Notes under the pieces: model-generated | Told to the model about the DNA's origin: nothing | What the model saw: only the letters and a program-made list of their open reading frames with translations | The model's database searches: none | Source of the DNA: an uncultured Anaerolineae bacterium | GTDB lineage: Bacteria > Chloroflexota > Anaerolineae > Anaerolineales > Villigracilaceae | NCBI GenBank assembly: GCA_903822545.1 | Contig: CAIJPN010000135.1 | Span: 1-64,000 of the forward strand | Reading direction: 5' to 3' | DNA: 64,000 nt | In this document: positions 46,666 through 56,015 of the stretch, piece by piece | Position numbering within the stretch: position 1 is the first letter of the stretch | How the letters are laid out: the number at the start of each line of letters is the position of its first letter | Position numbers and translations under genes: made by a program

Positions 46666-47091
46666 TTACTCTCCAGCCAGCGCTTCCAGCGCCAGGAGAT
46701 AGGATTTCCAGCCGAAGCCGGAGATTTTCCCCTTGCAGACGGCGGATACGAGCGATTTGTGACGAAATTCTTCACGGGCATACACATTCGAGAGATGGAC
46801 TTCCACCACCGGGATGCCGATGGCGGCAATGGCATCGCGCAGCGCCACGGAGGTATGAGTGTAGCCGCCGGGGTTGAAGATGACGCCATCGGCCCAGGCT
46901 CGGGCATCTTGCAGGGCGTCAATCAAAACCCCTTCGTGGTTCGATTGCTGGCAGCGGATTTCAGCGCCAAGCTGCGCGCCACGCCCGGTTATACGGGCGT
47001 TGATGTCGTCAAGGGTCATTTTTCCGTAGATTTCGGGTTCGCGGGTGCCGAGCAGGTTCAGGTTGGGGCCGTGCAATACCAGGATTTTCAT
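46666..47091 (-). CDS. aroQ: 3-dehydroquinate dehydratase, type II
   Basis: 141 residues starting [20 protein letters not shown], the hallmark type II opening. Further motifs: [30 protein letters not shown] and [17 protein letters not shown]. It dehydrates 3-dehydroquinate to 3-dehydroshikimate. It is the last gene of the aro operon and overlaps aroKB by ATGA. Confidence 0.96.
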
Positions 47092-48668
47092 GAATTCTCC
47101 GGGAAGATCAGGTTCAAATCATCCACTGCGACACCAACCTGGACTTTGCCAACCTGCACAGGCAGGGCAAACTTGACAGTGCCTTTTTCGCGTTTTTTGT
47201 CCATGCGCATAAAGCGGACAATCGCTTCACGCGACAGGTTTTGCGGGATTTCTACCGGCAGGGTCAATGCCTGGAGTGTTTCGGCAATCTGGTCGGCCAG
47301 GCCTTTTTTGGCGATCCCCATCTGCTCTGAGAGACGCGCTTCAGCAACCAGGCCGATCGCCACCGCTTCACCGTGCCGCAGGCGGAAGTTGGAGGCGCTT
47401 TCAACGGCGTGCCCGAGCGTGTGCCCAAGATTGAGCGCGGCGCGCAATCCACGTTCGTAAGGGTCAGCTTCCACGATCTGGATTTTGACCGCCATGCCAC
47501 GCCGCACGATTTCGGTGATATTGGTTTTGGCTTCGAGCAAGCCGCCGGTGCCGCATAGCTCAAAAAGTTTGGGATCGGCGATTAGCCCATGTTTGACTAC
47601 TTCGGCCATGCCGCTGCGCAATTCACGCACTGGCAGCGTGGCTAAAAGATAGGGGTTAGCGAGCACCAGCCGGGGCGGGAAAAAAGTTCCAATTAAGTTT
47701 TTGCCCTGGGGCAGGTCGAATCCGGTTTTCCCGCCGATGGAAGCATCCACCATCGACAAAAGGGTGGTGGGGATGTTGACCCAAGAGACGCCGCGCATGA
47801 AGGTGGAGGCAGCAAAGCCTGCCAGGTCGCCAATGACACCGCCGCCCAGGGCGATGACGGTGCTTTTGCGATCCAGCCCGGCTTCGAGGAAACGCCGCCA
47901 AAATTTCATGACCGATTCGAGGTTTTTGTGCGCTTCGCCCGCGGGGATGGTGATCATGTGCGGGTGGTTGTACCCATACCCGGCGCGGCGCAGGGCTGTG
48001 ATGAGCACGTCGCCATACAGCGGGGCGACGGTTTCATCGCAAATCACCACGACCGGCGGCCCCAGCCCAGACATGCGCAACATCTCTGGCAGATGATCGA
48101 AGCTGGACTCCTGGATCATGACATTGTAGCCCTGCCCCATACCGCTGATGTAATAGCGGCCCAGCATAAGCTGGATTTCGCGGGCAATCTCGACGGGGGT
48201 TTTGTTGGCGACAGGCTGACGCAATGAAAACGACTCGTAATGAGCGCGCCGCTCGTCTATCAGGCGGAAAAGCTGCGCTTCGAGCTTGCCAGCCAGCAGT
48301 GGGCGGATGGTAGGGTCGCCGCGCAGGCGTTCTTGCAGGGTTTTCAGGTCAGCATCAAAACAGATTACCCGGCCTTTGCTCTCAGCGTAGGCGCGATTTT
48401 GGTCACGCAGCAGCGCGCCGCCACCCAGGGAGATCACTTTGTTGTAGCCACGGCTAACACGCTTGAGCGCAGCCGTCTCCATATCGCGGAAACCGCTCTC
48501 GCCCCACTCTTCCATAATTTGCGGGATGGGCGCATCGGCGGTTTCTTCGATTTTTGCATCGAGATCGACAAACTCAAGGTTCAAATTTTCGGCCAAAATC
48601 CTGCCTACGCTGGATTTTCCCGAACCGGGCGGGCCATAAAGATAAATATGATCCATATTTTTTGTCAT
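47088..48668 (-). CDS. aroKB: Fused shikimate kinase and 3-dehydroquinate synthase
   Basis: 526 residues. The kinase half (1 to about 165) has Walker [25 protein letters not shown] and GGGALLRD. The synthase half has [20 protein letters not shown], the [24 protein letters not shown] core, [14 protein letters not shown] and [13 protein letters not shown], matching the metal- and NAD-binding AroB fold. Here the kinase that acts at step 5 precedes the cyclase that acts at step 2. Start chosen at MTKNMDHIY after AGGGA; MDHIY is an alternative. Coupled to aroQ. Confidence 0.94.
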
Positions 48669-48719
48669 TTTGCGTTCCCTGGAATTTTGGCTAAATTTAT
48701 CACACATTTTGCTGCGGTG

Positions 48720-49922
48720 TTATTCCCAAAAAAAGTGACCGGTATTATCCACTGGCAAATCATCCAATCGGGCTTTTCTCAGGCTCTCAAAACGCGGCAG
48801 CATCTCCGCCAGAGAGTCGCCGCCGAGCTTTTCGAGCAGCGCATCGGCCAGCACAAAGGCCACCATAGCTTCCAGGATCGGCACGGCGCGCGGCACGGGG
48901 CAAAAATCGGAGCGTTCGTAAGTCGTCGGACCTTCGGTGCCGGTCGCCAAATCCACCGTCATTTGCGGGGTGAGCGTCGTTGCAATCGGTTTCATCGCAG
49001 CGCGGATGATAATCGGCTGGCCGTTGGAGATTCCGCCTTCGATGCCCCCGGCGCGGTTGGTGGGGCGGAACAAGCCCTCATCCCCGGCCCTTCTCCCTCC
49101 GGGGGAGGGGTTAGGGGTGAGGGTGATTGCATCGTGCGCTTTTGTTCCCGGCAGGCGCGTATTTTCAAACGCATCGCCTATTTCGACACCCTTCATGGCC
49201 TGCACACTCATCACGGCCAGCGCAAGGCGGGCTTCCAGGCGCTTGTCCCATTGAGCGTAACTTCCCAGGCCAACCGGCACATTCAACGCCACAATTTCGA
49301 GCACACCGCCCAGGGTATCTTTATTTTGGATAATCTGGCGGATGCGCTCCCGCATCTTTTCCGCCGCTATAGAATCGGGGCAGCGCACGTCAGAATTTTC
49401 TGCCGATTCAAACCGCCCTGCATACGGCATCCCGTTAAAATCACCTTCAATCTCGCCGATGCTTTTCACATACCCGCCGACGACGATCCCAAACTGCCCG
49501 AGCAGGTGCTTGCAGACGGCTCCTGCTGCCACCCGCATCGTGGTTTCGCGCGCCGAGGAACGTTCCAGCGTCGGACGCAGATCGCGGTAGCCGTATTTGA
49601 CCGCTCCCGTTAAATCGGCGTGACCGGGGCGTGGAGTGGTCAGCGGCGCGATGGCTTTGCCCTGCCACTTGACATGATCGGCGTTTTCGACCAGGAGCGC
49701 AATCGGCGCGCCGGTCGTCTCGCCGCCCATCACCCCGCCCAAAATCTGGACGGTGTCTTTCTCGATTTTCATGCGTCCGCCCGAGCCGTAGCCCTGCTGG
49801 CGGCGCGCCAATTCGCGGTTGATGATATCGGGGGTTAACGTCAGCCCGGCGGGAATCCCGTCGAGGATGGTAGTCAGCGAGGGGCCGTGAGATTCTCCGG
49901 CGGTGAGGAAGCGGATAGGCAT
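48720..49922 (-). CDS. aroC: Chorismate synthase
   Basis: 400 residues starting MPIRFLTAGESHGPSLTTIL. Family motifs include RRQQGYGSGGRMKIEKD, GGVMGGETTGAPIAL, RPGHADLTGAVKYG, RDLRPTLERSSARETTMRVA and GGISNGQPIIIRAAMKPI. It removes phosphate from EPSP to give chorismate and needs reduced FMN. A stretch around LTPNPSPGGRRAGDEG is encoded by a family B repeat (49079-49125) just before the GGIEGGISNG core. The length exceeds the usual 360-390 residues partly for this reason. Confidence 0.95.
   Translation of the reverse strand: MPIRFLTAGESHGPSLTTILDGIPAGLTLTPDIINRELARRQQGYGSGGRMKIEKDTVQILGGVMGGETTGAPIALLVENADHVKWQGKAIAPLTTPRPGHADLTGAVKYGYRDLRPTLERSSARETTMRVAAGAVCKHLLGQFGIVVGGYVKSIGEIEGDFNGMPYAGRFESAENSDVRCPDSIAAEKMRERIRQIIQNKDTLGGVLEIVALNVPVGLGSYAQWDKRLEARLALAVMSVQAMKGVEIGDAFENTRLPGTKAHDAITLTPNPSPGGRRAGDEGLFRPTNRAGGIEGGISNGQPIIIRAAMKPIATTLTPQMTVDLATGTEGPTTYERSDFCPVPRAVPILEAMVAFVLADALLEKLGGDSLAEMLPRFESLRKARLDDLPVDNTGHFFWE
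49079..49125. repeat. Family B repeat in frame inside aroC
   Basis: CATCCCCGGCCCTTCTCCCT then CCGGGGGAGGGGTTAGGGGTGAGGG. On the minus strand this reads as the CCCTCACCCCTAACCCCTCCC form. It encodes about 16 residues next to conserved active-site sequence. Confidence 0.8.
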
Positions 49923-49936
49923 GTTATCTCCAGTAA

Positions 49937-50884
49937 TCAGTTTTCAACAGCCTGCCAGAGCACATCACGCGGCGGCTGGCAGCCTGTCCAAATCTCAAAA
50001 GCCAGGGCAGCCTGCTCGATGAGCATCCCCAGGCCGGTGGTGGCGGGCAGTCCCGCTGCGCGGGCTTCGCGAACGAGGCGCGTTTCACGGGGGTTATAGA
50101 CCAGGTCGTAGATGGCGGCATTTTCGGGAAAGGGTAGTTCCCAGGGGGTAGTGTCGAGGTTGGGGGTCATGCCGAGGGGGGTGGTGTTGACGATAAGGAT
50201 GAATTTGGAGGGATGAAGGATGAAAGATGAAAGATGAAAAAAATCGATGGTGCGGAGTGCGGGGTGCGAGAAGGTTTGGGCAAGTTGTTCGGCCTGTTCG
50301 AGGCGGCGTGCGGCGAGGGTTACGTTCCAGCTATCATGGAGCAGGGCGTAAACTACGGCGCGGGCAGAGCCGCCTGCGCCGAGGATGAGGGCTTCCCTCA
50401 CCCCTGGCCCCTCTCCCGGGGGGAGAGGGGAATCGCTCGTCTCCTGCCCATCTCCCGGGGGGAGAGCGGAATCGCTCGTCTCTTGCCCCTCTCCCCCCGG
50501 GAGATGGGTTGGGGTGAGGGCAAGAAAGTTATGCAAATCGGCCAAAAACCCCGGCGCATCGGTGTTGTCTCCGATTAACTGGCCGCTTCTCATCGAAATC
50601 GTGTTCACCGCGCCGATGGCTTTGGCCGTTTCGGTCAGCCCATCCAGCAGCGGAATCACGTTCTGCTTGTGCGGGATGGTGACATTCAATCCATGAATTT
50701 CGCCACTGCGGACACGGGCAAGCAAATCGGCCAGGCCGGGTTTATCGTCGGGGTGAATAGGAAATAGTGAATAGTTGCCGGTCAAGCCACAGGCGGCCAG
50801 GGCGGCAGCATGGATTTTGGGCGAGAGCGAGTGGCCGAGGGGGTGGCCGGTGAGGCCGAGGCGCAAGTTAGATGTCATGGGCAT
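49937..50884 (-). CDS. aroE: Shikimate dehydrogenase
   Basis: 315 residues, long for AroE (usually 270-290). N-terminal substrate domain: LRLGLTGHPLGHSLSPKIH, GLNVTIPHKQNVIPL. Cofactor domain: ILGAGGSARAVVYAL, followed by NTTPLGMTPN and YDLVYNPRETRLV. It reduces 3-dehydroshikimate with NADPH. Two insertions are repeat-encoded. One, tandem PPGEGQETSDS-like units, comes just before the glycine-rich loop (50395-50520). The other, HLSSFILHPSKF, is in the Rossmann fold (about 50210-50240). Starts at MPMTS or MTS two codons later are equally possible. Confidence 0.93.
   Translation of the reverse strand: MPMTSNLRLGLTGHPLGHSLSPKIHAAALAACGLTGNYSLFPIHPDDKPGLADLLARVRSGEIHGLNVTIPHKQNVIPLLDGLTETAKAIGAVNTISMRSGQLIGDNTDAPGFLADLHNFLALTPTHLPGGEGQETSDSALPPGDGQETSDSPLPPGEGPGVREALILGAGGSARAVVYALLHDSWNVTLAARRLEQAEQLAQTFSHPALRTIDFFHLSSFILHPSKFILIVNTTPLGMTPNLDTTPWELPFPENAAIYDLVYNPRETRLVREARAAGLPATTGLGMLIEQAALAFEIWTGCQPPRDVLWQAVEN
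50208..50243. repeat. GATGAAAGATGAAAG-type repeat in frame inside aroE
   Basis: GGAGGGATGAAGGATGAAAG followed by ATGAAAGATGAAAAA. It is a low-complexity tandem of 9- to 11-nt units. On the minus strand it encodes HLSSFILHPSKF in the middle of the cofactor domain. Confidence 0.55.
50395..50520. repeat. Triple family B repeat in frame inside aroE
   Basis: CCCTCACCCCTGGCCCCTCT is followed by CCCGGGGGGAGAGGGG, then two further units with CTCCCGGGGGGAGAG and CTCCCCCCGGGAGATGGGTTGGGGTGAGGG, joined by AATCGCTCGTCTC spacers. The spacers repeat nearly exactly, so the cluster probably grew by unequal duplication. Confidence 0.8.
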
Positions 50885-50953: not shown

Positions 50954-52249
50954 TCATCGCAAAGTTTCTAAAACATCGAAGAAATTTGGAAAAGTTTTGG
51001 AGACGCAGCCGGGGTTTTCGATGTCCACGCCGGGAACGCGCAGGCCGATGAGCGAGAAGGCCATGGCCATGCGGTGATCGTTGTAGGTTTGGATGGTGGC
51101 CGGGCGAAATTCGCTGCATGGATAGATGGTCATGCCATCGGGGTGTTCCTCGACTTTAACACCGAGGCGGGCCAGTTCGGTACAGGTGGCGGCGACCCGG
51201 TCGGTTTCTTTGACGCGCGCCGAGGCGATTCCGCGAATGCGGATGGGGCTGTCGGCGAAGGGGGCGATGGCGGCGAGGGTCTGGGCGGTGTCGGGGATGT
51301 CGCGCATGTCAACATCCAGTCCATTCAGGGGCGAGTGACCAGTGACCAGTAAACAGTTATCAGTCTCTTGAATTGTGCAGCCCATTTTTTCGAGGACATC
51401 TAAAAAGGCGATGTCGCCCTGGACGGAGCGGCGGGAGATGTTTTCGACGCGAACCGTCCCGCCGCAGAGGGCAGGGGCGGCGAAGAAGTAGGATGCGGCG
51501 GAGGCGTCGGATTCGATGGCGTAAGAGGAAATAGGAAAGAAGAAGGAAGGGGTAATTTTGAAATACTGGTACCCATCGCGTTCGACGGTAACGCCGAAAT
51601 CTTGCATGATGGCGAGGGTCATGTCAACGTAGGGTTTGGAGTTCAGGTCGGTTGAAAGTTCGATTTCTATCGGGTTTTGGGCGTAGGGGGCAACCATTAG
51701 CAAGGCTGACAAAAACTGGCTGGAGATGTCTCCGGCAAGAGTGGTTTTGCCGCCGGGCAGGCCGGATGACGAGATAAGGAGAGGAGGAGCGATGAGTTTT
51801 CCCTCGCCCCCCGCCCTCTCCCGGTGGGAGAGGGGGCTAACCCTGGCTCCCAGTTGGGTGAGGGCATCTACCAAATCACCAATGGGGCGTTCGCGCATCC
51901 GGGGTTCGCCATCGAGGATGTATTCGCCATGGCCGAGGGTCAGGAAGGCGCTCAGGAAGCGGGCGGCGGTGCCGGCGTTGCCGATGAAGAGTTCGGCTTT
52001 GGATGCGGGGATTTTGCCACCGAGGCCGGTTACCAGCATCTCGTGGGCGGATTCGTCGAGGGTCAGGTCAAAACCAAGGGCCTGGAGGGCGCGGGCAAAG
52101 TAGCGGGAGTCGTCGCTGAAGAGGGCGTTGGTTAAACGGGTTTTTCCATCCGCGAGGGCGGCGATGGGCAGGGCGCGGTTGGTGAGGGATTTGGAGCCGG
52201 GGACGCGAACGGTGGCGGAGAGGGGAGAGGAGAGAGGGGTTATGAGCAT
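50954..52249 (-). CDS. aroA: 3-phosphoshikimate 1-carboxyvinyltransferase (EPSP synthase)
   Basis: 431 residues. Core motifs: VRVPGSKSLTNRALPIAALA near the N-terminus, FIGNAGTAARFLSAFLTLG, DGEPRMRERPIGDLVDAL, VKETDRVAATCTELARLG and YNDHRMAMAFSLIGL. It adds enolpyruvate from PEP to shikimate 3-phosphate. A repeat-encoded stretch follows ALTQLGARVS (LSHRERAGGEGK, from 51800-51865), and LLVTGHSPLNG reads through a CAGTGACCAGT-type unit (51332-51363). The N-terminal MLITPLSSPLSATVRVPGSK is unexceptional. Confidence 0.95.
   Translation of the reverse strand: MLITPLSSPLSATVRVPGSKSLTNRALPIAALADGKTRLTNALFSDDSRYFARALQALGFDLTLDESAHEMLVTGLGGKIPASKAELFIGNAGTAARFLSAFLTLGHGEYILDGEPRMRERPIGDLVDALTQLGARVSPLSHRERAGGEGKLIAPPLLISSSGLPGGKTTLAGDISSQFLSALLMVAPYAQNPIEIELSTDLNSKPYVDMTLAIMQDFGVTVERDGYQYFKITPSFFFPISSYAIESDASAASYFFAAPALCGGTVRVENISRRSVQGDIAFLDVLEKMGCTIQETDNCLLVTGHSPLNGLDVDMRDIPDTAQTLAAIAPFADSPIRIRGIASARVKETDRVAATCTELARLGVKVEEHPDGMTIYPCSEFRPATIQTYNDHRMAMAFSLIGLRVPGVDIENPGCVSKTFPNFFDVLETLR
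51332..51363. repeat. Family D (CAGTGATCAGT-type) unit in frame inside aroA
   Basis: GTGACCAGTGACCAGTAAAC then AGTTATCAGTC. The minus strand encodes LLVTGHSPLNG. Related intergenic units lie at 52254, 54256 and 61941. Confidence 0.6.
51800..51865. repeat. Family B repeat in frame inside aroA
   Basis: CCCTCGCCCCCCGCCCTCTC then CCGGTGGGAGAGGGGGC and CCAGTTGGGTGAGGG. It is a hairpin with the CTCTCCC...GGGAGAG core. Confidence 0.8.
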
Positions 52250-52253
52250 AAGA

Positions 52254-52338
52254 GTAATCAGTGAGCAGTTATCAGTGGTCAGCGATTGGTAATTAGTAGT
52301 TGGAGATTAGTACTTACTGGTCACTGATTACTGGTAAT
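52254..52338. repeat. Family D repeat between aroA and tyrA
   Basis: AATCAGTGAGCAGTTATCAG and GTGGTCAGCGATTGG, then TACTGGTCACTGATTACTGG. Units of ATCAGTGA/TCACTGAT form an imperfect palindrome. Its right part encodes the last residues (RITSNQ) of tyrA. Confidence 0.7.
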
Positions 52339-53169
52339 TCGGGTGTACTTTTCACGAGCGGTATCGAGCGTGGATTGGATGATAGGAAAGTCTTCAGCAG
52401 TGAGGGCGGTTTCGAGGGTGGTGAGTTCGGCTTGCAGGCAGTGGATGGCGGCGAGGATGTTTTGGCGGTTGGTCTGGAGAACGCCCATCATCATGGAGGA
52501 GGGCGTCCCGGCCAGGCGGCTGGTGGAGCGGAAGCCGGGGCCGATGAGGGGGGTGGCTTCGCCAGGCGTGGCAAGGCATAGGGCGGAGGAGAGCAGGAAG
52601 GGCAGGTGGCTGGTGCTGGCGAGAATCCGGTCGTGGTCGGCGGGGTCGATGAGGATGCGATTGGCGCCCAAAACCGCCAGAATCTGGTCGGCGGCGGATT
52701 GGGCGCGGGGGGTGGTGCGGGCGAGCGGGGTCAGGATGAAGGGGGCGGCGTAGTAGAGCGTCCGCTCGGCGTTGGCGATGGTCAGTTTTTCTTTGCCGCA
52801 GATGGGGTGACCGCCAATCGGGTCAAAACGCTCGGGCAATTGCTCCATTTTCTCGACGATGGCGCGTTTGGTCGAGCCAAGGTCGAGCACGAGGAGTGGA
52901 TTCGGCGTATAAGCGGGTAAATGCTCCAGCAGGGTCAAAATTGCCGGGACGGGGGCGGCCAGTATAACGAGATCGGCTAAAGGGAGGAGTTTGGCGGGGT
53001 CGCTGTCGGCCAGGTCAACGATGTTTTGACGGAGGGCCAGCGACAGGGCGGCGGAATCCGGGTCGATTCCGACCAGGCTTGAACAATGTCCCTTTAACGC
53101 GAGGGCCATCGAGCCGCCCATCAGCCCCAATCCTATAATCGCAATTTTTGACTCTTTGAGATTAAACAT
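52321..53169 (-). CDS. tyrA: Prephenate dehydrogenase
   Basis: 282 residues starting MFNLKESKIAIIGLGLMGGS, an NAD(P)-binding Rossmann opening. Expected TyrA residues appear in LVILAAPVP, LDLGSTKRAIVEKM, PIGGHPICGKEK and STSHLPFLLSSALC. It converts prephenate to 4-hydroxyphenylpyruvate for tyrosine. There is no ACT domain, so direct Tyr inhibition may be weak; control could lie in the attenuator instead. The last codons come from a family D repeat. The ribosome binding site, TGAGGGCGT, is the end of a family B repeat. Confidence 0.92.
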   Translation of the reverse strand: MFNLKESKIAIIGLGLMGGSMALALKGHCSSLVGIDPDSAALSLALRQNIVDLADSDPAKLLPLADLVILAAPVPAILTLLEHLPAYTPNPLLVLDLGSTKRAIVEKMEQLPERFDPIGGHPICGKEKLTIANAERTLYYAAPFILTPLARTTPRAQSAADQILAVLGANRILIDPADHDRILASTSHLPFLLSSALCLATPGEATPLIGPGFRSTSRLAGTPSSMMMGVLQTNRQNILAAIHCLQAELTTLETALTAEDFPIIQSTLDTAREKYTRITSNQ

Positions 53170-53171
53170 AC

Positions 53172-53211
53172 GCCCTCACCCCTAGCCCCTCTCCCGGTGG
53201 GCGAGGGGGAC
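53172..53211. repeat. Family B repeat at the aroF/tyrA junction
   Basis: CCCTCACCCCTAGCCCCTCT and CCCGGTGGGCGAGGGGG. On the minus strand it supplies the tyrA ribosome binding site (GTGAGGGCG) upstream of aroF, encodes the last residues of aroF (PLAHRERG), and gives its stop codon TAG. Confidence 0.8.
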
Positions 53212-54225
53212 GGCTACTCGTCGGCCTACGGCCTCGGCGACGGATTTAACCTGGGACACCATTTTGGCGAAGGCTTCGGGGGTGAGGGATTGTTTGCCGT
53301 CGGACATGGCGTGGGCGGGGTCCTGGTGGGCCTCGACGATGAGACCGTCGGCCCCGGCGGCGATGGCGGCTTTGGCGATGGCGCTGACGTAGGCGGCGTG
53401 GCCGGTGGAGTGGCTGGGGTCGAGGATGACGGGCAGGTGGGTGAGGCTTTTGAGAACGGGGATGGCGTTGATGTCGGTGGTGTTGCGGGTGGCGGTCTCG
53501 AAGGTGCGGATGCCGCGCTCGCAGAGCATGACGCGGGTGTTGCCGCCGCTCAGGATGTATTCGGCGGCCATGAGCAGTTCTTCGACGGTGGCGGAGAGGC
53601 CGCGTTTGAGCAGGACGGGGGTGCGGGTTTCGCCGACGGCGCGCAGCAGGTTGAAGTTTTGCATGTTGCGCGCGCCGATTTGCATCACGTCGACGTATTT
53701 GACCATGATTTCAACCTGCGAGACAGCCATGATTTCGGCGACGACGGGCATGCCCGTCAGTTCGCGGGCTTCGGCCAGGTATTCGAGGCCTTCTTCGCCG
53801 AGGCCCTGGAAGGCGTAGGGCGAGGTGCGCGGTTTGAATGCGCCGCCGCGCAGGGCGTTGGCCCCGGCTTCGCGGACGGCCTGGGCGATTTCGAGCAGTT
53901 GGGTGCGGCCTTCGACCGAGCACGGCCCGGCGATGATGGCGATCTCTTCACCGCCGACGGAGAATCCGTCGATGGGGAAAACGCTGTCGTGCGGGTGGAA
54001 CTGGCGCGAGGCGAGTTTGTAGGGCTGGGAGATGCGCTGGACGGTCTGGACGCCGGGCAGGGTCTCGAAAACATCAGTAGAAACGGTGTGGCTCTCGCCA
54101 ACTGCGCCGATGACGGTTTGTTCGACGCCTTCGATGACGTGGGCGGAAAGGTTGTGGGCTTCGATGTGCTCGATAACATGCGCAACCTGTTGTTTGGTCG
54201 CGCCGGGGTGCATGATGATCATCAT
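53182..54225 (-). CDS. aroF: DAHP synthase, second copy in the operon
   Basis: 347 residues. Type I beta enzyme with a ferredoxin-like N-terminal regulatory domain ([20 protein letters not shown]). Catalytic region: [77 protein letters not shown] and [15 protein letters not shown]. It makes DAHP from PEP and erythrose 4-phosphate. It is close to the neighbour at 54331, but residues differ throughout, so the duplication is not recent. The C-terminal residues and stop codon come from a palindromic repeat. Confidence 0.94.
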
Positions 54226-54255: not shown

Positions 54256-54340
54256 AGTGATCAGTGATCAGTGAACAGTGGCGACTGATTACTGATCACT
54301 GATCACTGGTAAATGATCACTGGTAACTGATTACTGTTTC
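54256..54340. repeat. Family D tandem repeat between the two DAHP synthase genes
   Basis: GTGATCAGTGATCAGTGAAC is followed by GACTGATTACTGATCACTGATCACTGG, and then AATGATCACTGGTAACTGATTAC. Repeats of CAGTGATCA occur in both orientations, giving a long imperfect palindrome. It encodes the last codons of the upstream aroF copy. Confidence 0.8.
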
Positions 54341-55371
54341 ACTGGAAGCCGAACAGACGCCAGCCGCCTGTCCATAATCTGCGCGATCTGGCCGACCTGC
54401 TTGACCATTTTGGCGAAGGCTTCGGGCTTGAGCGATTGTTTTCCATCGGAGGCGGCGTGGGCCGGGTCAGGGTGGACTTCGACGATCAGGCCGTCGGCCC
54501 CGGCGGCGATCCCGGCGCGGGCTATGGCGGCGACAAAGTCCGAGTGGCCGGTGGCGTGCGAGGGGTCGAGAATGACAGGCAGGTGAGTCAGGTTTTTCAA
54601 GACGGGGATGGCGTTGATATCGGTGGTGTTACGGGTGGATGTCTCAAAAGTGCGGATTCCGCGCTCGCACAGCATCACCTGTTTGTTTCCCCCAGACAAA
54701 ATATACTCAGCAGACATGAGCAGTTCTTCGATGGTGGCTGAAAGTCCGCGTTTGATCAGGACACTCGTCCGCGTCTCACCGATGGCGCGCAGCAGGTTGA
54801 AATTCTGCATGTTACGCGCGCCGACCTGGAGCACGTCGACATATTTCACCATCAGGTCGAGCTGCACCTGCGACATGATCTCAACCACAATCGGCAGTCC
54901 GGTTTGGGCGCGGGCTTCAGCCAGGTATTCGAGGCCTTCCTCGCCCAGTCCCTGGAAAGCGTAGGGGGATGTGCGCGGCTTGAAGACACCACCGCGCAGG
55001 GCGGCTGCTCCCGCTTCTTTGACAGCGTGCGCCGTTTCGGTGATCTGGGAGCGGCTCTCCACCGAACATGGCCCGGCAATCACGGCGATTTCTTCTCCCC
55101 CGACGGTGAATCCATCGAGCGGGAAGACGGAATTTTCCGGGTGGAACTGGCGGGATGCCAATTTATAGGGTTTGGTGATGCGCTGGACTTCGTCCACGCC
55201 ATCGAGGGTCTCAAACAACTCAGCCGGGACGTTGTGCGTTTCGCCAATCGCGCCGATGATGGTGGCTTCGACGCCCTGTGAAAGGTGAACTGCCAGCCCG
55301 GCGGCTTTGATATGCTCAATAACATGATCCACCTGCTGGGGGGTGGCGTTGGGTTTCATGATGATCATCAT
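54331..55371 (-). CDS. aroF: DAHP synthase, first copy in the operon
   Basis: 346 residues with the same domain plan as its neighbour: N-terminal [20 protein letters not shown], then [58 protein letters not shown] and [15 protein letters not shown]. The N-terminal domain binds aromatic amino acids in related Thermotoga-type enzymes. Two copies could have different feedback specificities, but the residues that decide this were not assigned. It follows aroH after a 77-bp gap with a family C repeat. Confidence 0.94.
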
Positions 55372-55452: not shown

Positions 55453-55820
55453 TGGGCTGCTACCAGATCAGGCCGCAGGCGAACCGCTTTGCGCAGGTAG
55501 GTGTGGCGGATGCCGCTCTGGGGGATATCTGTGTTCCAGTGGAGTAAAACCCGGATGGCGAGGGGCAGGCTGCCGGGTACGGGGATTTCGCGGGCGCAAA
55601 TCATCGGGACGAGTCCCCAGCCAAATTGACGGGCTGCCTGTGCCGGGAAAGCGGAAGAAATATCCGCAGTGACGGTAAAAATGACGCTGGCGATGTCTTC
55701 CGAACGCATTGAATCATTCGCTTCCAGCATGGCGACCAACAGTTCCCGGGTCGCTTCGTAGACCAGTTCGGGCTGGTCGGCTTCAATGGATGTTGCTCCA
55801 CGCACGCCACGGATTGCCAT
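55449..55820 (-). CDS. aroH: Chorismate mutase, AroH type
   Basis: 123 residues starting MAIRGVRGATSIEADQPELV, the typical B. subtilis-type opening with active-site Arg in RGVRGAT. SMRSEDIASVIFTVTADISSA and LPLAIRVLLHWNTD carry further active-site residues. It converts chorismate to prephenate. It is the first structural gene after the attenuator. GGAGGAATT lies before the ATG and directly follows the terminator T-run, so termination would remove it. Confidence 0.95.
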   Translation of the reverse strand: MAIRGVRGATSIEADQPELVYEATRELLVAMLEANDSMRSEDIASVIFTVTADISSAFPAQAARQFGWGLVPMICAREIPVPGSLPLAIRVLLHWNTDIPQSGIRHTYLRKAVRLRPDLVAAQ

Positions 55821-55833
55821 AAATTCCTCCAGG

Positions 55834-55865
55834 AAAAATTAGAGCGAGCCCGTTGGGCTCGCTCT
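55834..55865 (-). terminator. Attenuator terminator of the aro operon
   Basis: On the minus strand AGAGCGAGCCC pairs with GGGCTCGCTCT around AAC, then AATTTTT. It lies between the leader peptide and aroH. Its loop and inner stem, CCAACGG, can instead pair with CCGTTGG at 55909-55915 in the leader-peptide coding region, giving a 7-bp antiterminator core. Confidence 0.85.
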
Positions 55866-55898
55866 TGTGAATTCAGTCAGGGTATTGAACCTGTCCGC

Positions 55899-55976
55899 TT
55901 AAGCGCCGCCAACGGCATCCGTATTTGGGAAGCCGTAAAAATAGTACGCAAAATAAAAGCGGTGGGTAAGTTTCAT
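55899..55976 (-). CDS. Phe/Tyr leader peptide of the aro operon
   Basis: A 25-codon frame MKLTHRFYFAYYFYGFPNTD followed by AVGGA and stop. Residues 7-16 hold four Phe and four Tyr, with only Ala11-region and Gly interruptions, and no Trp. This composition matches pheL-type leader peptides in enteric bacteria but here includes Tyr equally. Scarce charged tRNA-Phe or tRNA-Tyr would stall the ribosome and leave CCGTTGG (codons 21-23) free to block the terminator. The ATG lies 10 nt after the -10 box, so translation is nearly leaderless. The inference rests on sequence alone. Confidence 0.82.
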   Translation of the reverse strand: MKLTHRFYFAYYFYGFPNTDAVGGA

Positions 55977-55986
55977 GTTGGGCGCT

Positions 55987-56015
55987 ATTCTATGTCAGCG
56001 GAGGGGATGCGTCAA
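55987..56015 (-). promoter_or_regulatory. Promoter of the aro operon
   Basis: Minus-strand TTGACG (56010-56015), 17-bp spacer, TAGAAT (55987-55992), then 10 nt to the leader ATG. Confidence 0.8.

Follow-up and report, generated by a model that had tools for sequence, protein, structure and literature searches.

The region upstream of aroH raises the question of why a short open reading frame (ORF) crowded with Phe and Tyr codons, followed by a terminator, stands at the head of an operon for aromatic amino acid synthesis. Analysis of the window, that is, the whole 64-kb stretch of DNA in which this locus lies, and of related genomes makes it very probable, judging from the sequences, that the aro operon is controlled by a ribosome-mediated transcription attenuator of the classical leader-peptide type.

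The leader and the operon behind it

All elements of the locus are on the minus strand. The promoter consists of a -35 hexamer TTGACG (56010-56015) and a -10 hexamer TAGAAT (55987-55992) separated by a 17-nt spacer, and is sigma-70-like with 10 of 12 consensus matches. It is followed, 10 nt from the end of the -10 hexamer, by the ATG of the leader ORF MKLTHRFYFAYYFYGFPNTDAVGGA (55899-55976), which has 25 codons plus a stop and no Shine-Dalgarno site. The proposed sensing (stalling) codons are codons 7-16, FYFAYYFYGF (55929-55958), eight of these ten being Phe or Tyr. When ORFs of 12-60 amino acids were scanned on both strands of the window, the leader was the only one with at least six Phe/Tyr per 10 codons, and the scan also placed a strong terminator downstream of it. 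This is an intrinsic hairpin AGAGCGAGCCCAACGGGCTCGCTCT (55841-55865) of 11 bp, 8 of them GC pairs, with the U-tract AATTTTT at 55834-55840; 20 bases separate the terminator from the start of aroH, whose ATG is at 55820. The first-pass annotation had listed the same promoter, the 25-codon peptide and the 11-bp terminator with its T-run ahead of aroH, and each was recovered (at 56015-55987, 55976-55899 and 55865-55834, respectively). The leader RNA folds with -48.8 kcal/mol (z -4.3), and none of 200 shuffled sequences was equally stable.

Behind the leader stand nine co-directional aro genes, as had been claimed, with intergenic gaps of -4 to 105 nt in which no hairpin terminators were found. 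They are aroH, encoding a monofunctional chorismate mutase (TIGR01796; 55449-55820), two aroF-type DAHP synthase genes (54331-55371 and 53182-54225), tyrA for prephenate/arogenate dehydrogenase (52321-53169), aroA (50954-52249), aroE (49937-50884), aroC (48720-49922), an aroK-aroB fusion (47088-48707) and, last, aroQ for a type II dehydroquinase (46666-47091). Genes were named with NCBIfam models, most of them matched above cut-off; tyrA and the aroK part of the fusion are exceptions, being good matches below the cut-offs. The two adjacent DAHP synthase genes belong to the same subfamily and are probably a tandem duplication. The pheA gene is not part of the operon but lies elsewhere in the same genome, and no leader was seen there at either pheA or trpE.

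Conservation of the codons and of the competing pairings

In the family to which the source genome belongs, aroH could be located in 117 of 152 genomes, and 110 loci were gathered; three of these end within 170 nt upstream, leaving 107 usable. Many of the compared sequences appear to be metagenome assemblies, and class names were deduced from the few named records. The promoter region, an ATG-started aromatic ORF and the terminator are kept in 106 of the 107 loci, a single one (L123, G066:C29) having sufficient upstream DNA and showing no aromatic leader. That is, neither of the two findings named beforehand as speaking against attenuation, namely relatives with the terminator but without the Phe/Tyr codons, or with a disrupted small frame, was encountered in those 106 loci. 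The best 10-codon window mostly holds 6-8 Phe/Tyr in the leaders, versus mostly 2-4 in shuffled sequences and on the reverse strand: in 390 shuffles a count of 3 is the most frequent, and 5 is reached by 11 of them and by 2 of 130 reverse strands (more distant loci included). Phe and Tyr are both present in every one of the 106 leaders (on average 3.7 and 3.2 per leader, respectively), and Trp in 65. For the 91 leaders that could be aligned codon by codon, the last three sensing positions are Phe or Tyr in 90-91, the lone exception being a Pro, and the fourth from last in 84. The two residues exchange freely at sensing positions (e.g. Y54/F37 and F49/Y41), and 86 of the 91 have Tyr as their final sensing codon.

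In the promoter, TTGAC(N) with a spacing of 16-18 nt occurs in 102 of the 106 leaders, with TAGAAT in 91 and a spacer of 17 in 97 of these 102. The leader ATG follows the -10 box at a distance of exactly 10 nt in 86 of the 102, which places the probable transcription start about 3-5 nt before the ATG. None of the leaders has GGAG, GAGG or AGGA before its ATG, and one of these motifs precedes aroH in 105 of 106 loci. The 10-nt distance together with the missing Shine-Dalgarno site makes a nearly leaderless mRNA probable. A comparable case is trpL of Sinorhizobium meliloti, in which a leaderless mRNA that starts at the ATG is combined with transcription attenuation (PMC7298713). The start of the aro leader is deduced from promoter spacing; trpL, unlike the aro leader, carries Trp codons and belongs to the Alphaproteobacteria. 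With an almost leaderless start, it could be tested in what way leaderless translation sustains close coupling to transcription.

The RNA pairings were compared by counts and shuffles in an alignment (A1) of the 106 leaders. In the terminator, 98.4% of the alignment cells are paired, and double changes occur at 9 of 12 aligned pairs. A hairpin 1:2 in the coding region (ACGGC...GCCGU; 55912-55936), seen in the predicted fold, has 92.4% of cells paired and changes on both sides at 5 of 8 pairs. In controls with slid partners, pairing for these two structures is only 34-57%. The antiterminator would form between segment 2 (GCCGUUGGCGGCGCUU; 55901-55916), which overlaps the last leader codons, and segment 3 (55850-55864), which comprises most of the terminator 5' arm, the loop and the start of the 3' arm. 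A 7-bp core had been noted at first reading, with CCGTTGG in leader codons 21-23 and its complement CCAACGG in the terminator; both are present at these places, but the complementarity is longer, with a second block of 5 bp. The antiterminator thus comprises 12 bp in two blocks, GCCGUUGGU with the terminator apex and CGCUU with GAGCG in the terminator 5' arm. Its cells are paired in 91.5% of cases versus 40-46% with slid partners, and the duplex energy is -20.0 kcal/mol for the window's own leader, with a mean of -18.7 over the leaders, versus -10.8 with segment 2 shuffled; a comparison in which segments were swapped between genomes gave a modest signal (31/2000). Covariation had been suggested as the check on both competing pairings. 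It was found for the terminator and hairpin 1:2, but in the antiterminator only three pairs show double changes, not above shuffles, because this pairing is too conserved. In 12 genomes the end of the ORF is read in an alternative frame (..LPLVALK, not ..VAVGGA) while segment 2 is almost unchanged; in this part the RNA and not the peptide is conserved. About a hundred natural variants of the leader show selection on the aromatic codons, the spacing and the RNA pairing but not on the peptide sequence or the end frame.

Predicted switch geometry and rival explanations

The nascent RNA was folded with parts masked by a ribosome of an assumed 15-nt footprint. With the ribosome at codons 11-16, segment 2 is free and pairs into the antiterminator of 12 bp (-23.7 to -24.8 kcal/mol) before the 3' arm of the terminator is complete, whereas a ribosome at the stop codon covers segment 2, and the terminator alone forms. 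In the full-length RNA the terminator fold is more stable than the antiterminator, which means that the latter must act kinetically. A set of 42 leaders, i.e. 41 mostly from other families or classes plus that of the window, shows similar geometry: from the final aromatic codon it is mostly 11-17 nt to the start of segment 2, whose end lies close to the stop codon. The mean z of this set is -1.9, with 24 of 42 leaders in the lowest 5% of shuffles. The aro leader has every testable defining feature of classical attenuators: a short predicted ORF rich in the amino acids concerned (eight Phe/Tyr in 10 codons), an intrinsic terminator between this ORF and the first gene, downstream genes annotated as making the sensed amino acids, a conserved 12-bp antiterminator that excludes the terminator and begins inside the ORF, and, under the assumed footprint, a geometry in which a stall frees segment 2 and a ribosome at the stop codon hides it.

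We infer the following course of events. Transcription would begin a few bases upstream of the leader ATG, with a ribosome trailing the RNA polymerase. At low levels of charged tRNA-Phe or tRNA-Tyr, the ribosome would stall within codons 7-16 and cover the 5' side of hairpin 1:2, leaving segment 2 (codons 21-25) free to form the two-block, 12-bp duplex with segment 3 of the newborn terminator, and the polymerase would continue into aroH-aroQ. When Phe and Tyr are both plentiful, the ribosome would reach the stop codon and hide segment 2, so that the 11-bp terminator forms and transcription halts; without translation, hairpin 1:2 would hold segment 2 and the terminator would form as well. Attenuation, as first proposed, is strongly supported by the comparison with relatives, and one switch of this kind would tune nearly the whole aromatic pathway to Phe and Tyr.

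Other readings of the same parts were weighed. A short conserved ORF ahead of a terminator could also encode a peptide that arrests its own ribosome in response to a free metabolite, as TnaC does, instead of codons that sense tRNA charging. Arrest peptides require specific residues, whereas here the peptide varies outside its aromatic run, Phe and Tyr are interchangeable, and the C-terminal frame changes while the RNA stays the same, which makes arrest very unlikely. The hairpin might instead merely terminate the upstream ilv-leu operon, which ends with ilvE immediately before the leader on the same strand, the small ORF being accidental. Upstream genes vary among relatives, and ilvE is there in only 5 of 104, yet the leader, promoter and terminator persist; moreover, the promoter sits between ilvE and the hairpin, and the Phe/Tyr codons are conserved far above chance. 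We therefore rejected the end of the upstream operon as an explanation, rating it slightly less probable even than peptide arrest. Least credible of all is control of the terminator by a ligand-binding riboswitch, a T-box or an RNA-binding protein. A structured leader with a terminator would suit it, but an Rfam scan of the leader gave nothing above the gathering score and, at E<=1, just a spurious match to a miRNA model, which led us to reject any known riboswitch, T-box or leader family; beyond the ORF and the switch segments the leader contains hardly anything, and no aptamer-sized domain.

A more serious alternative concerns not attenuation itself but which amino acid is sensed. Within the attenuator model it is possible, although we think it the less probable case, that a single amino acid, probably Phe, is sensed and that the other aromatic codons are passengers. 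This would parallel AroR of Corynebacterium glutamicum, a Phe-Tyr-Phe leader upstream of aroF on which, as reviews relate it, Phe starvation acts and Tyr starvation does not (Neshat et al. 2014, via PMC11802643 and PMC7356990), so that a mixed leader may not mean Tyr sensing. The operon also has tyrA and not pheA, the latter lying elsewhere without such a leader. Against Phe as the sole signal, Tyr codons are almost as numerous as Phe codons in the leaders (3.2 vs 3.7), and the final sensing codon is a Tyr in the large majority given above.

Known attenuators, distribution and sister leaders

Classical attenuation is known mainly from Proteobacteria and Actinobacteria. The enteric ilv and thr leaders and the ilvBNC leader of C. 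glutamicum carry branched-chain or Thr codons and belong to phyla other than Chloroflexota. Like these, the aro leader combines codons of different end products (for ilvBNC, PMC11857589). With E. coli pheL-pheA and pheST it shares Phe codons and mutually exclusive terminator and antiterminator structures (PMC11802643, and partly general knowledge), but those leaders have Phe only, precede a single gene or a synthetase operon, and show no sequence match to the aro leader in Rfam. Closest is AroR, which has both Phe and Tyr codons and in which stalling raises transcription of an operon that starts the aromatic pathway; compared by description, AroR is from Actinobacteria and has only Phe-Tyr-Phe described, versus eight Phe/Tyr here, and the operon here, headed by aroH, has nine aro genes. 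The first-pass annotation knew of no mixed leader governing a complete nine-gene aro operon in a Chloroflexota-type genome; a mixed leader as such is not unprecedented (PMC11802643). For Chloroflexota, searches of the open literature turned up no account of attenuation, although a 2010 survey of attenuation in bacteria (Lopatovskaya et al., cited in PMC4833913) may contain cases. In a comparative study of Actinobacteria, no RNA element conserved at Phe or Tyr operons was found (PMC1262725). The mechanism is classical; what is new is its extension to Chloroflexota, a deep-branching and little-studied phylum, its deep conservation, the control of a nearly whole pathway, and the sister leaders before ilvD (Ile/Leu/Val) and aspartokinase (Thr).

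The relatives of the source genome are Chloroflexota, so that the host had been placed correctly. A covariance model built from alignment A1 matches 122 of 251 genomes of the order; among 297 genomes drawn from the class it matches 43, 27 of which belong to the order, and outside the order the signal fades. Of its best matches in the order's other families, 13 were inspected, and each stands before aroH-aroF or an aroF. Of 18 loci sampled within the class but outside the family, 15 have aromatic leaders of different sequence upstream of aroH; such leaders, again differing in sequence, also precede aroH in other Chloroflexota classes, including Chloroflexaceae-like families, and in many further families of the phylum aroH has no such leader. 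The leader tracks the pathway rather than one gene, occurring also before aroH-pheA-aroF (L284), a lone aroF (L260) and a chorismate mutase-DAHP synthase fusion (L259). The last two are second copies in their genomes (G034:C59:29628-29785, with FYFFAFFF, and G527:C160:2445-2590, respectively). A second match of the model in the source genome itself (C86, E 0.34) was rejected as chance, having neither a leader nor the gene context, and a number of weak matches (L265, L266, L272, L275, L278-L282, L288-L290) resemble ordinary terminators.

Weak matches of the aro model in relatives also led to leaders at ilvD, the first gene of the ilv-leu operon. In the source genome, an Ile/Leu/Val-rich leader MQTNSHTFILIVILSVLVLKDLFPVGMAKVSTK with a terminator precedes ilvD at about C135:69499-69398 on the minus strand, beyond the end of the window (L267, G000:C135:63700-74427), and an Ile/Leu/Val leader with a terminator was present in all 27 family genomes inspected, i.e. 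those with a close ilvD, the source genome included. The aro model further found two Thr-rich leaders with terminators upstream of aspartokinase genes, TTTNTMTTT (L264, G407:C119:94990-95138) and MGTTTTTSQM (L277, G566:C276:11389-11540), which are possibly a recoded threonine attenuator. It is possible, although slightly less probable than not, that in Chloroflexota, at least in Anaerolineae and Chloroflexia, leader-peptide attenuation is a general control of amino acid operons, built on a nearly leaderless RNA chassis that has received different sensing codons: Phe/Tyr at aro, Thr at aspartokinase and perhaps Ile/Leu/Val at ilv-leu. In one further genome that also has the aro leader, a leader-like element with a few Phe codons precedes pheA, the prephenate dehydratase gene (L261, G666:C249:14457-14596).
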